Of a stretch of DNA of 45,672 bases, positions 2,877 to 18,301 are shown one piece after another. Source of the stretch: Archaeoglobi archaeon (GTDB lineage: Archaea; Halobacteriota; Archaeoglobi; Archaeoglobales; Archaeoglobaceae); NCBI GenBank assembly GCA_029259335.1, contig JAPDIY010000034.1, positions 1 through 45,672 on the forward strand, given 5' to 3'. Within the stretch, counting starts at the first letter, position 1, and the number at the start of each line of letters is the position of its first letter. Made by a program: the position numbers and the translations under genes. The notes under the pieces were generated by a model that had not been told where the DNA came from, ran no database searches, and saw only the letters and a program-made list of their open reading frames with translations.

Positions 2877-4147
<1,271 letters not shown>

Positions 4148-4150
4148 GCT

Positions 4151-4930
4151 TCACCTCATGTTCCTGAATGTTATCTCGACCAAGGGATGGGGAACGTCCT
4201 CTATTATCTCAATGTCTCTTACGGATTTTAATCCCTTCTTTTTCACCAGCTTCTCTATACCCAGCTCAACGCCCTCTGGAACTTCAATAATGTACGCATC
4301 AAGCTCCCTTATCCCAAGTTTTGCCGCAGCAACAACTCTATGATGGCCGTCCACCAGATAGAACCTGGAATCCTTCTTTATCACCACTATCGGCTCCGCT
4401 AGACCCCTCTTGAGTTCGTGAATTCTACCCCTCAGCTCATCTGCATATATCCTCGTCTGGGTCGGTATGAGCCTTGCAGTCTCAACCTTACCCCTTCTAA
4501 CTTTTGTCTTTACTCCATGAACTTTCTCAATCGTCCTTTTCAGCTTTTCCACCTTATCCGGATCTACCTTCTCTATCTGGCTCCTAATAACATCCGCATT
4601 TGAAATTATTCCCACAAGCCTGTTATTTTCATCCACAACGGGCAGCTTGGAATGTCCTGTTCTAAACATAACTCTTGCAGCATCTCTTAAGTCCATAAAA
4701 TCCCTCGCAACGTATAGTTCTTTCGACATAATATCTTTTATCTTGGTTTTAGGGTCTTTGTCGAGCATATCAACAGCGGAAATATACCCCACAACTCGCA
4801 TGTCATCATCAACAACGGGAAAGCTGTCATGACCAGTTTCCTTAACTAGCCTCACGGCATCCTCTACAGTATCATCGGGTTTAAGAGTGCAAACGTTTTT
4901 TGTCATGTAATCTTTAACCTTAATGTTCAT
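4151..4930 (-). CDS. CBS-domain protein with C-terminal ParB/SerK-like domain
   Basis: Two CBS motifs (about residues 8-57 and 66-115) form a Bateman module, which usually binds adenine nucleotides. A linker (120-150) leads to a ParB/Srx-fold domain (about 150-220). That domain contains L-I-P-T-Q, EPIVVIKK (E179) and the signature DGHHRVVAA (194-202). The same D-G-H-H-R core occurs in SerK, the archaeal ADP-dependent free-serine kinase, and in ParB-type CTPases. A small C-terminal region (221-259) follows. The DNA-binding part of a true ParB is missing, so chromosome partitioning is unlikely. A nucleotide-regulated kinase or phosphohydrolase is more plausible, but this is inference. The gene lies between purQ (37 nt) and srp19 (3 nt). 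Confidence 0.8.
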   Translation of the reverse strand: MNIKVKDYMTKNVCTLKPDDTVEDAVRLVKETGHDSFPVVDDDMRVVGYISAVDMLDKDPKTKIKDIMSKELYVARDFMDLRDAARVMFRTGHSKLPVVDENNRLVGIISNADVIRSQIEKVDPDKVEKLKRTIEKVHGVKTKVRRGKVETARLIPTQTRIYADELRGRIHELKRGLAEPIVVIKKDSRFYLVDGHHRVVAAAKLGIRELDAYIIEVPEGVELGIEKLVKKKGLKSVRDIEIIEDVPHPLVEITFRNMR

Positions 4931-4967
4931 TGGAAGAGAAAAATTGCCGAGAGGCTAAAAATTTTTG

Positions 4968-5783
4968 CTAAAGCTTTTCCAGATAATCAACAACACTCCT
5001 GAAAATGCAATATCCATCTCCGTACCCTTCACTCTTACCAACCTGATATCCGAAAAAGGCTCGTTCAGGGTGGGGCATGAGTCCAAAAACCGTGTGTGTT
5101 GCATTGCAGATCCGGGCTATGTTGAAGTAACTTCCGTTGGGGTTCCAAGGATAGCCCGCATAATTGCCCTCGTCGTCAACGTACCTGAAAACTATCTGAT
5201 CGTTAGAGAGCAGCCTTTCAACGTATTCATCTTCTCTCCCTGAGGGAAACGTAACCTTACCCTCCGCGTGGGCTACGGGGAACATGACGATGTCTTCATT
5301 CAATCTGCTCACAAATACGCATTTCCTGCTTTCCTTTTTCAGCAATGTTGGTCGGCACTCGAATTTGTTGGAGTCGTTGATGGCAAGTGCCATTTCAGGT
5401 TTGTCAGATACAGGCCTGTCCTCATCAAATCCGGGCAGGACGCCAAGTTCAACGAGAACTTGAAAACCATTGCATATGCCGAGAATAGGGTATCCCATCT
5501 TTATGAATTCCTCAATATCCTTTCTCAAAACACTCTTCACCCTCGCCGAGAAAATCGCTCCTGCCCTTATGTAATCTCCAGCAGAGAAGCCACCGGGAAA
5601 AACAAGGCAGTGGTAGTCGAAGATACTCCTCTGCTCTTCAAACCTGATCATATCACTGTAAAACTGCTTCACGTGAACTGCTTCAGCCTCAACACCCACA
5701 CTTCTGAAGGCTTTGACAGTTTCATCCTCACAGTTTGTTCCTTCCATCCTAAGAACTGCAACTCTAATCTCGTCTCTGTCCAT
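4968..5783 (-). CDS. purQ: Phosphoribosylformylglycinamidine synthase subunit PurQ (glutaminase)
   Basis: PurQ is the glutamine amidotransferase subunit of FGAM synthase. It makes ammonia from glutamine and channels it to PurL in the fourth step of purine synthesis. The class I amidotransferase motifs are clear: GGFSAGDYIRAGA, the nucleophile C104 in LGICNGFQVL, and H238/E240 in MPHPERAF. At 271 aa it belongs to the longer PurQ type, with extra residues between nucleophile and His-Glu. It shares a divergent intergenic region with the saccharopine-dehydrogenase-like gene. The start lacks a Shine-Dalgarno site but has an AT-rich TATA-like stretch about 20-30 nt upstream. purL and purS are not in the window. 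Confidence 0.95.
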   Translation of the reverse strand: MDRDEIRVAVLRMEGTNCEDETVKAFRSVGVEAEAVHVKQFYSDMIRFEEQRSIFDYHCLVFPGGFSAGDYIRAGAIFSARVKSVLRKDIEEFIKMGYPILGICNGFQVLVELGVLPGFDEDRPVSDKPEMALAINDSNKFECRPTLLKKESRKCVFVSRLNEDIVMFPVAHAEGKVTFPSGREDEYVERLLSNDQIVFRYVDDEGNYAGYPWNPNGSYFNIARICNATHTVFGLMPHPERAFFGYQVGKSEGYGDGYCIFRSVVDYLEKL

Positions 5784-5868
5784 TAGGTAGATTTAGTCAG
5801 AAGTATTTTTTAACTTTACCAGAGTAAAAACTTAATATTAAAAAATTAAGAAAAATAGAAGTAGTCAT
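5784..5868. promoter_or_regulatory. Divergent promoter region between purQ and the saccharopine-dehydrogenase-like gene
   Basis: This 85-bp gap is very AT-rich. A minus-strand TATA-like stretch at about 5802-5815 would serve purQ, and a plus-strand one (CTTAATATTA) at about 5830-5840 would serve the rightward gene. Both are at distances that fit leaderless or nearly leaderless transcripts. I saw no clear operator palindrome. Confidence 0.5.
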
Positions 5869-7004
5869 ATGAGACTCCTCGTGCTTGGTGGTTGTGGGGC
5901 TCAGGGGACTTTTGCAACGAAGGAGCTAGTAACGTTTGATGAATTTTCGGAGGTAATAGTTGGAGATTACAACATTGAAAAGGCGAAAAAGCTGGCTTCT
6001 GAATTAAAAAGTGACAAGGTTGATGTGAGGAAGATTGACGTTAGGGAGGAAAATGAACTGGTCAAACTGATGAAGGAGTTTGATATAGTGGTGAACTGTG
6101 TCGGGCCATTTTACATGTATGGTTTTAAAGTGCTGAAGGCGGCAGTAAAGGCTGGAAGGGATTACGTTGACATATGCGATGATTTTGATGCTACGATAAA
6201 GATGCTGGAACTGGATGAGGAAGCGAAAGATGCAGGAATGACCGCCGTTATTGGGATGGGTGCAAGTCCCGGAATCACGAATGTTTTGTCTGTTTATTAC
6301 GCCAGCATGCTGGACAGGGTTGACGAGATTCGCCATTACTGGGTGGTGGACAGTTCTCATGATCCAGAGGGGCAGGCTGTTATGTACCATGCCGCCCACG
6401 GATTGACCGGAAGAGTTCCGCAGTACATTGATGGTAAGCTCGTTTACGTTCCTGCCGGCTCTGGATTTGAAAAAGTTAGATTACTAAGTGGAGAAGCCGA
6501 GGTAGTCTATTACGGCCATCCTGAGCCAGTAACGCTTCCAAAATACATAGAGGGTGTCGGGACTGTGGTGAACAAAGGCGGTTTTCTGCCCTCATCAGAT
6601 TTCAAGATTTTCAGACTTCTGTCTAGGCTTGGACTATTCAGCACAAAGGGTGTCGGAGGAATATCTCCAAGAAAGCTGACAGTCTACATTCTTACAAGGC
6701 TGACAGCTCACAGTGAGCTTAAAGAAGGAACAAGAACTGCAATGAGAATCGAGGTCAGAGGGACGGAGAAAGGAGAGGAGACATTTATGCTGCTGACCTC
6801 TGGGGGCATATGGGGCCTGCTACTGGACTTCCAGCAGCTCTCGTTGCCTTGATGATTGCCAGAAAAAATATTGAAGCAAAAGGTGTTTTGCCACCTGAAG
6901 CATGTGTTAGTCCCGAAATTTTCTTAGAGTTGGCGAGAGATAGAGTTCCTTCGGATTCTATGTTGATTCAGGAAAAAGTTAAAAGAGGTCCACTTTTTTA
7001 TTAA
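5869..7004 (+). pseudogene. Saccharopine dehydrogenase-like oxidoreductase, single-base frameshift
   Basis: The NAD(P)-binding Rossmann start MRLLVLGGCGAQG and the following domain match the saccharopine dehydrogenase NADP-binding family (PF03435). The real substrate of archaeal members is mostly unknown. The first frame runs to a stop at 6850-6852, but its last residues do not fit the family. The -1 frame from about 6800 carries GHMGPATGLPAALVALMIA, the expected C-terminal motif, and reaches a stop at 7002-7004. The break falls on a run of five G at 6802-6806. Six G would join the frames as TSGGHMGPATG and give about 378 aa. No convincing slippery heptamer is present, so this is a pseudogene mutation or a homopolymer sequencing error rather than programmed frameshifting. 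Confidence 0.82.
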
Positions 7005-7067
7005 ACTTTTTGATGGTCATCAATTGCTTTCAACTTGGATTGAGCGTTGGTGAACCCAAACAAAACC

Positions 7068-7076
7068 CTTATATAC
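7068..7076 (+). promoter_or_regulatory. TATA box for the spoVG-like gene
   Basis: CTTATATAC stands about 42 nt before the chosen TTG start at 7118. It predicts a transcript starting near 7098-7100 with a short leader that contains GGAGG. The TTG at 7085 would lie upstream of that transcript start. Confidence 0.6.
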
Positions 7077-7117
7077 ATGTCTAATTGAGAGTTACGAAAT
7101 TTGAAGGAGGGTTAGAA

Positions 7118-7375
7118 TTGGCCGAAATAACGGAAGTTAGAATATATAAAGCGAAGGGAAATGGAAATGTGAAAGCCTACGCATCTGTAAGCTTTGACAA
7201 CGAGTTTGTTGTCAAGGGCTTGAAGGTAGTAGAAGGTGAGAGAGGACTCTGGGTTAGTATGCCCAGTAGAAAGATGAGGGATGGAAGTTTTCAGGACATT
7301 TTCCATCCTGTAAGTAGAGAGGCGAGAGACAAAATCGTGGATGCTGTTCTAAAAGCATATCAGGAGCAGGAGTAA
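7118..7375 (+). CDS. spoVG: SpoVG family protein
   Basis: SpoVG proteins are small nucleic-acid-binding regulators known mainly from Firmicutes and spirochaetes. The sequence shows the family landmarks in order: EITEVRIYKAKGNGNVKAYA, the strand FDNEFVVKGLKVVEG, LWVSMPSRKMRDGSFQDI and F-H-P-V with a C-terminal helix. The length of 85 aa matches the family. The start is TTG at 7118, because GGAGG at 7106-7110 is 7 nt upstream and bacterial SpoVG starts at the same point of the fold. It has its own TATA box and a T-rich terminator, so it is a single-gene unit. SpoVG is uncommon in archaea, and transfer from bacteria is a reasonable inference. Its archaeal role is not known to me. Confidence 0.9.
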   Translation: MAEITEVRIYKAKGNGNVKAYASVSFDNEFVVKGLKVVEGERGLWVSMPSRKMRDGSFQDIFHPVSREARDKIVDAVLKAYQEQE

Positions 7376-17879: not shown

Positions 17880-18040
17880 AAGTGTGTCGCATCTAGGCCC
17901 GGAGCTTCGGAGACTTTTAAAACTCCTCAGGTTTCCCCTCGGAGCTTTCCAACGGATTTACACCAGAACCTGAGGTTTTACCCTCGAAATCCCAAGTTCA
18001 ACCCATCAGCATCTCCTCAGCCCGGTTTACCCTGCGACTA
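17880..18040 (-). ncRNA. Candidate structured non-coding RNA, about 160 nt, family not identified
   Basis: The 255-bp space between 17854 and 18110 has no coding potential but shows an RNA-gene layout on the minus strand. A TATA element at 18059-18066 predicts a start near 18040. Exactly there begins TAGTCGCAGG, whose GTCGCA pairs with TGCGAC about 145 nt later (near 17886-17891), forming a terminal stem. The 3' strand is followed directly by ACA and then a T-rich stretch. Inside, CCTCAGGTT and AACCTGAGG can pair over 9 bp, and GAGGGTAAAACCTC can form a local hairpin. The sequence is visibly richer in GC than its flanks, as expected for RNA genes in a hyperthermophile. The ACA after a closing stem recalls H/ACA guide RNAs. 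The conserved cores of RNase P and SRP RNA are not seen. Confidence 0.6.
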
Positions 18041-18058
18041 AGATAGTTGGTGGGAGAG

Positions 18059-18066
18059 CATATAAG
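18059..18066 (-). promoter_or_regulatory. TATA box of the candidate ncRNA
   Basis: On the minus strand this reads CTTATATG, preceded by an A-rich BRE-like stretch. It lies 19-26 nt before the predicted RNA 5' end and points away from any protein gene, which supports a dedicated RNA transcript. Confidence 0.6.
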
Positions 18067-18109
18067 TTTTTCTATTATCAATTGTGAAAAACCCGAAAAA
18101 CCTGCAGTA

Positions 18110-18301
18110 TCATTTTTCCGAAAATATTCTTGCAATCGTTATTAGAGCTGAAAACAGGACTGAGAGCAGAATTGACAGGAGTAAATCTACCTTAGAGTAA
18201 TGCAGGACGACCATTGCAACCAAAAAACTCATAACAGCAGTACCTGCGATAGACATAAGCTTTAGACTGCTGAACAGGTCATCTCTCATACTCTCATCCA
18301 T
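18110..18301 (-). CDS. Small two-helix membrane protein (63 aa)
   Basis: I do not recognise a family. The product has a charged N-terminus (MDESMRDDLFSSLK), two predicted membrane helices (about 14-35 and 37-57) separated by HYSKVDLL, and a short charged tail. Such hairpins are found in many archaeal small integral membrane proteins. ATG at 18289 is an alternative start. GGTG near 18320 is too far for either start, so the ribosome-binding site is weak. The amphipathic-hydrophobic alternation and open frame make it plausible. It stands alone between the ncRNA promoter and tRNA-Thr. Confidence 0.55.
   Translation of the reverse strand: MDESMRDDLFSSLKLMSIAGTAVMSFLVAMVVLHYSKVDLLLSILLSVLFSALITIARIFSEK

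Follow-up and report, generated by a model that had tools for sequence, protein, structure and literature searches.

The genome analysed here (G000, contig C8), that of a heat-loving member of the Archaeoglobaceae, carries, on the minus strand at positions 18039-17886 of the window (the whole stretch of 45,672 nucleotides of DNA that was studied), what is almost certainly a real gene for a structured non-coding RNA. By its sequence, this RNA has a canonical bulge-helix-bulge (BHB) whose outer half is the terminal helix, and the letters of this motif are nearly identical to those of the pre-16S processing site. The RNA is very probably a substrate of the archaeal splicing endonuclease EndA, and the excised RNA is probably circular; we regard as likely the reading in which a stand-alone gene yields an EndA-excised core that would be joined into a circle and act in trans. 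The features of the gene are listed here, with the evidence for each.

18059..18073, minus strand: promoter, BRE-like AGAAAAA and TATA box CTTATATG; from the sequence, kept in all five homologs
17886..18039, minus strand: structured non-coding RNA (precursor core, 154 nt including a leading A); fold z-score, five covariance-model homologs, covariation
18033..18038, minus strand: P1 5' strand GUCGCA, outer BHB helix; paired in all five species, one compensatory change
18029..18032, minus strand: P2 5' strand GGGU, 4-bp central BHB helix; pair 4 is U-G, C-G or U-A by species
18026..18028, minus strand: first 3-nt bulge AAA, predicted EndA cut site; same letters in all five RNAs and in the pre-16S BHBs of their genomes
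18022..18025, minus strand: P3 5' strand CCGG, inner BHB helix; same letters in the pre-16S BHB
18012..18016, minus strand: P4 5' strand GGAGA, following a 3x3 purine-rich internal loop; compensatory G-C to A-U change in A. fulgidus
17949..18009, minus strand: arm A, a long hairpin ending in an invariant GG-GUAAAA-CC loop (17981-17976); loop identical in all five, stem covaries
17919..17948, minus strand: arm B, hairpin AAAGCUCC/GGAGUUUU, which follows arm A without a gap; double-sided changes at six pairs
17909..17913, minus strand: P4 3' strand UCUCC, following an A-rich junction strand; from the alignment
17899..17902, minus strand: P3 3' strand CCGG; one C-A mismatch, in G002 only
17895..17898, minus strand: P2 3' strand GCCU; from the BHB scan and strand cofolding
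17892..17894, minus strand: second 3-nt bulge AGA (ACA in G002 and A. fulgidus), predicted EndA cut site; 3 nt in all five
17886..17891, minus strand: P1 3' strand UGCGAC; from the alignment

Gene locus and promoter

G000 belongs to the family Archaeoglobaceae and to the same genus as A. fulgidus. The genomes compared with it include Archaeoglobus sp. UBA230 (G003), Archaeoglobi S5B8_HD70 (G005), a further member of the genus (G002) and G001, a single contig of 2,178,400 bases which we take to be A. fulgidus DSM 4304. An initial annotation, made from the letters alone, had described a structured RNA closed by a terminal helix and preceded by a TATA box of its own, and the promoter, helix and fold all proved to be conserved in five genomes. 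The TATA element CTTATATG, which that annotation had put 19-26 nt before GTCGCA, is present at 18066-18059 of the minus strand with an A-rich BRE-like stretch 5' of it, at a measured distance of 21-28 nt from GTCGCA (18038-18033), so that the start site is predicted to lie within a few nucleotides of 18039. The pairing of GTCGCA with TGCGAC (17891-17886), followed by ACA, was also read correctly. The description of a GC-rich RNA within AT-rich flanks holds on one side only: the RNA has a GC content of 53%, versus about 38-40% in the 200-nt windows upstream and 46-50% in those downstream. The annotation had seen no ORF, and the query has no ATG ORF longer than four codons on the strand of the RNA; the indels among the homologs have lengths that are not multiples of three. 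It had also left the family unassigned, in keeping with our Rfam search, in which no family reached its gathering threshold and only sub-threshold noise appeared at E values up to 10. RNase P and SRP cores, which it could not recognise, are indeed absent, as there is no RF00373 or RF01857 match at the locus and the relatives carry both as separate genes.

In all five copies the A-rich BRE-like stretch and TTTATATGC (TTATATGC in the query) stand at equal distance from the RNA, the relatives reading (A)CAAAAA[CT]TTTATATGC, and a conserved CCAAC..AT.AT stretch is found 3' of the TATA element. The pattern was not found before RNase P, SRP or 16S genes. The neighbours of the RNA (named from their translations where Pfam gave no match) are purB and cyclophilin-like genes in G000 and UBA230, DUF362 and carB-side genes in G005, toxin-antitoxin-like genes and an oxidoreductase in G002, and glnP and an HtpX-like protease in A. 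fulgidus. These differing neighbours mark the RNA as an independent gene and not a UTR. It may already have been detected in the 2002 A. fulgidus RNA library.

Several other elements were observed near these loci. At 18110-18301 on the minus strand lies a gene for a 63-aa, two-segment hydrophobic protein with no Pfam match, which is found in seven of the eight genomes of the genus, at differing loci. In UBA230 (G003:C48, L077) a diversity-generating retroelement in a provirus-like region (3826-7222) adjoins the RNA; it contains a reverse transcriptase (PF00078), a 536-aa tail-fibre-like ORF and a 113-nt template/variable repeat pair (5047-5159 and 5619-5731) with 15 differences, all of them at template A. 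A link between this reverse transcriptase and the RNA was rejected, the enzyme being part of the retroelement of the provirus region and absent at the other RNA loci. In G002, a Pab91-like H/ACA RNA (L004, 1733-1791, minus strand; 42.8 bits against an Rfam cut-off of 71, E 1.7e-5) lies on the opposite strand, some 85 nt downstream of the RNA.

Homologs, fold and covariation

Homologs in the genus were detected with blastn in UBA230 (94% identity), G005 (92%) and G002 (74%), and these three, together with the query, fold alike. A first covariance model built from the four sequences found a fifth homolog that blastn had missed, in A. fulgidus (209729-209900, minus strand, E = 2e-21), bringing the RNA to five of the eight genomes of the genus. 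The five-sequence model was then run on 59 genomes of the class, on nine selected genomes and on 393 genomes sampled from the phylum, and no homolog appeared beyond the same five genomes. The RNA was not found in G004 and G006, which are near-complete; G007, another member of the genus with no accepted match, is only 54% complete. A 16S tree did not resolve where the RNA gene was gained or lost. Weak model matches in G022 (inside a CDS), in G007 (at the start of adenylosuccinate synthetase) and in G019 (a 38-nt hairpin by tRNAs) were rejected. The last, at L075 1501-1538 on the minus strand (12.7 bits), shares the GGGTAAAACC loop of the RNA, directly precedes a tRNA-like gene and is probably a chance likeness. 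Viral contigs gave no match to a two-part pattern.

The fold is far more stable than its composition would predict, as the 163-nt stretch folds at -72.2 kcal/mol versus -48.7 +/- 3.7 kcal/mol for 200 dinucleotide shuffles (z = -6.35, with none of the 200 as stable), and the RNA was the best of 54 fold windows in a 4-kb scan of the minus strand. Standard pairs fill 95.1% of the pair cells of the five-sequence alignment, versus 26-52% (at most 51.8%) in slid controls, and 14 pairs show double-sided compensatory changes, where shuffles had a mean of 5.5 and 0/500 reached as many; the alignment was fitted to the model, and both figures thus lean towards structure. In arm B, P1 and P4 the compensatory changes between A. 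fulgidus and the others are visible by eye, that in P1 being C-G to U-A. Folding, covariation in related genomes and conservation of the terminal helix were among the checks and refuting conditions that the initial annotation had named, and each came out in favour of a structured RNA. A six-base terminal helix is expected by chance alone, and P1 gains its significance from being paired in all five genomes with a compensatory change.

Arm B ends in a GAAA tetraloop in three species. The internal loop of arm A is not conserved in sequence. Three unpaired elements are invariant (GUAAAA in arm A, the bulge AAA and the A-rich strand of the junction), and these resemble sites of protein binding or tertiary contact.

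A bulge-helix-bulge at the RNA ends

What escaped the initial annotation is that the terminal helix forms half of a BHB, so that it reads as a processing site and not as a stabilising end. The archaeal EndA site consists of two 3-nt bulges separated by a 4-bp helix (PMC6379350, PMC7714728), and the A. fulgidus EndA is a homodimer of narrow specificity (PMC6379350). The five-sequence alignment has exactly this geometry in every species: a 6-bp P1, a 4-bp P2 (GGGY/RCCC), a 5' bulge AAA, a 3' bulge AGA or ACA on the opposite strand, and P3 starting from CCGG/CCGG, each bulge lying 3' of the central helix on its own strand, as in archaeal splicing-endonuclease sites. P2 is paired in 100% of its cells, including two G-U pairs in the query. 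P3 reads CCGG/CCGG in four species; in G002 a C-G pair next to the bulge is followed by a C-A mismatch and then by G-C pairs. Both the outer and the inner helix thus have the at least two Watson-Crick pairs by which such helices are defined (PMC7714728).

The structure was not assumed beforehand, since the unconstrained minimum-energy fold of the query already contains the 3-nt bulge, 4-bp helix and 3-nt bulge. The isolated BHB strands cofold at -14 to -19 kcal/mol; those of G002 do not cofold into the full inner helix. EndA (PF01974) is encoded in all five RNA-bearing genomes (G000, G001, G002, G003 and G005). Geometry by itself was rejected as proof, as a loose BHB scan gives about 12 chance matches per shuffled 45-kb strand, so that what carries the case is conservation together with the resemblance to the 16S site.

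Relationship to the pre-16S processing stem

The rRNA operons were searched for the BHB geometry of the RNA as a positive control. The pre-16S stem of G001, G002 and G003 contains a BHB reading ..CAGCA GAGC AAA CCGGC .. GCCGG GCTC ATA TGCTG.. (GAGT in G003), and the pre-23S stem of G001 and G002 one reading ..CCCAA ATGC AAT CTGGG .. CTCAG GCAT AGA TTGGG... The site of the RNA, GCA GGGY AAA CCGG .. CCGG GCCC A[GC]A TGC, has 25 of its 28 letters in common with the 16S site. The second bulge is AUA in the pre-16S BHB, AGA in the pre-23S BHB and AGA or ACA in the RNA.

The 14-mer GCAGNGYAAACCGG, the core of the pre-16S BHB, occurs at 16 places in 55 genomes of the family, namely nine pre-16S leaders (at loci L110, L100, L101, L102, L105, L106, L113, L114 and L107), the five RNAs and two others, while its reversed control matches once. 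Each of the five RNA-bearing genomes has exactly two copies, one before 16S and one in the RNA, and each of the three members of the genus without the RNA has one copy, before 16S. The core precedes 16S in all eight genomes of the genus and in only one of the 47 other genomes of the family, so the 16S processing-site sequence seems to be nearly genus-specific.

The outer helix of the RNA (GTC-GCA/TGC-GAC) is one pair short of the 16S stem (GTCAGCA/TGCTGAC), and this, together with the matching letters around both bulges, makes it plausible, on sequence grounds, that the site of the RNA descended from a copy of the 16S processing stem. Alternatively, the two could have converged on what the Archaeoglobus EndA prefers. 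The two sites share their geometry, the bulges AAA and A-N-A and the flanks GCA, CCGG and TGC. They differ in setting: the pre-16S BHB encloses the 1.5-kb 16S rRNA within an operon, between outer and inner helices of 12-16 bp, whereas the RNA has helices of 6 and 4 bp, a cargo of 130 nt and its own promoter.

Alternative explanations

The gene could instead encode a linear structured small RNA, acting by base pairing in trans or by binding a protein, whose terminal helix has no role but to protect the ends and whose likeness to a BHB is incidental or unused. Archaeal intergenic sRNAs with promoters of their own are common and have been reviewed (PMC5867862), and the many chance matches in the loose BHB scan fit this reading too. 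It is nevertheless unlikely, given the near identity to a bona fide EndA-type site of the same organism, the invariant bulge sizes in five species and the 14-mer common to 16S and the RNA in every carrier genome. The same likeness could be turned to another use, that of a regulator of the processing machinery which mimics the pre-16S site and titrates EndA, or pairs with the pre-16S leader or trailer, and so couples the RNA to ribosome production; the resemblance of the outer helix to the 16S stem (GTC(A)GCA / TGC(T)GAC) and the half-sites, in principle complementary to the opposite pre-16S half-sites, would agree with it. We consider this quite improbable: the intramolecular BHB is stable from its strands alone, so that pairing in trans would have to compete with it, a mere decoy would have no need of the strongly covarying interior, and the promoter differs from that of the rRNA operon.

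A cis-acting element, whether a 3' UTR or antisense partner of the convergent cyclophilin-like gene, whose stop lies about 32 nt from the end of the RNA in the window, or a partner of the gene for the 63-aa membrane protein, whose ORF lies about 71 nt upstream and adjoins the RNA in G003 and G005 as well, is very improbable in view of the other neighbours in G005, G002 and A. fulgidus and the location of the 63-aa gene elsewhere in G001, G002, G004 and G006; coupling to that ORF was rejected as the two are unlinked elsewhere in the genus. We give hardly any credence to an H/ACA guide RNA, which the initial annotation had offered as one option. A. fulgidus does have archaeal H/ACA RNAs (PMC4652768), and the query shows both hairpins and the ACA, but the ACA is missing in the other four species (the five read ACA, TCC, TAC, GGC and CTT). 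The P3-P4 internal loop, UGA/GAA, UGA/AGG or AAA/GAU, forms no conserved kink-turn or K-loop, with tandem G-A pairs in only three close relatives and within a symmetric internal loop; the internal-loop sequences are not conserved as those of guides would be, and no Rfam H/ACA family matches the RNA. Other classes were rejected as well: a C/D box sRNA (a C-like UGAUG in three species only, and a best Rfam match to sR32 of 14-20 bits against a cut-off of 40), RNase P RNA and SRP RNA, and an antisense to methylmalonyl-CoA mutase, identified by reading its peptide, where weak 88% matches over about 30 nt to the non-coding strand of one conserved gene in several relatives were put down to chance, since G002 and A. 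fulgidus do not conserve that segment of the RNA.

Proposed maturation into a circular RNA

Under the preferred reading, that of an excised and circularised RNA, transcription would start from the TATA promoter, either at the terminal helix or a few bases ahead of it, and both ends of the transcript would then pair into the canonical BHB (P1, P2 and P3, with bulges AAA and A[GC]A). EndA would cut both bulges and the two short ends would be discarded, releasing a Y-shaped core of 127-134 nt if the cut is assumed to fall after the second base of each bulge. We infer that ligation of the two ends of the core would close it into a circle resistant to exonucleases, whose three arms would be P3-P4, arm A (with the invariant GUAAAA loop) and arm B. 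When the cores were folded as circles, the three-armed shape was kept in four of five, G002 being predicted to rearrange. All that the cuts would leave of the precursor is a piece of about a dozen nucleotides at one end and a short, T-rich tail at the other, and the product must therefore be the part that is excised. A possible role for the circle in trans, and at present a guess, would be that of a protein-bound regulatory or scaffold RNA.

RtcB ligase is to be expected in archaea. For tRNA introns and pre-rRNAs it is established that excision at a BHB goes together with circularisation (PMC7714728), and archaeal BHB-excised products are joined end to end (PMC7714728, PMC4731332, PMC12918454). 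The main text of a circRNA survey (PMC12558985) does not mention Archaeoglobus. The closest parallel is the permuted circular SRP RNA of Thermoproteus tenax (PMC4731332), likewise a stand-alone ncRNA gene with a TATA box and a short leader, whose BHB joins the ends to give a circular RNA; its cargo is, however, a recognisable SRP RNA and its EndA is of broad specificity, whereas here the cargo matches no known family and the BHB is canonical. The BHB introns of tRNA genes, of the cbf5 mRNA and of the HVO_1309 5' UTR (PMC7714728) are also excised by EndA and can be circularised, but they interrupt a host gene with exons that matter, while the 'exons' of this RNA amount to about 12 nt and a short tail. 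Archaeal H/ACA sRNAs (A. fulgidus Afu46, Pab91) are likewise small structured archaeal RNAs, and the RNA differs from them in having no conserved ACA box or kink-turn and apparently no conserved guide pocket.

Implications

The archaeal EndA substrates in the literature cited here are tRNA introns, pre-rRNAs, a permuted SRP RNA and two mRNAs. If our reading is true, a stand-alone RNA gene with a canonical 16S-type site would be a new class of natural EndA substrate. The EndA of this genus is a structural model enzyme. The candidate circular RNA would be directly testable, and the RNA constitutes a new family with a five-sequence covariance model ready for use. With the balance for and against about even, this may be a dedicated circular-RNA gene family, with a promoter, a leader and tail reduced to vestiges, and an EndA site of the 16S type that encloses a conserved three-armed RNA, and possibly derived from a copy of the pre-16S stem, in which the enzymes of rRNA processing would make a stable circular regulatory or scaffold RNA.
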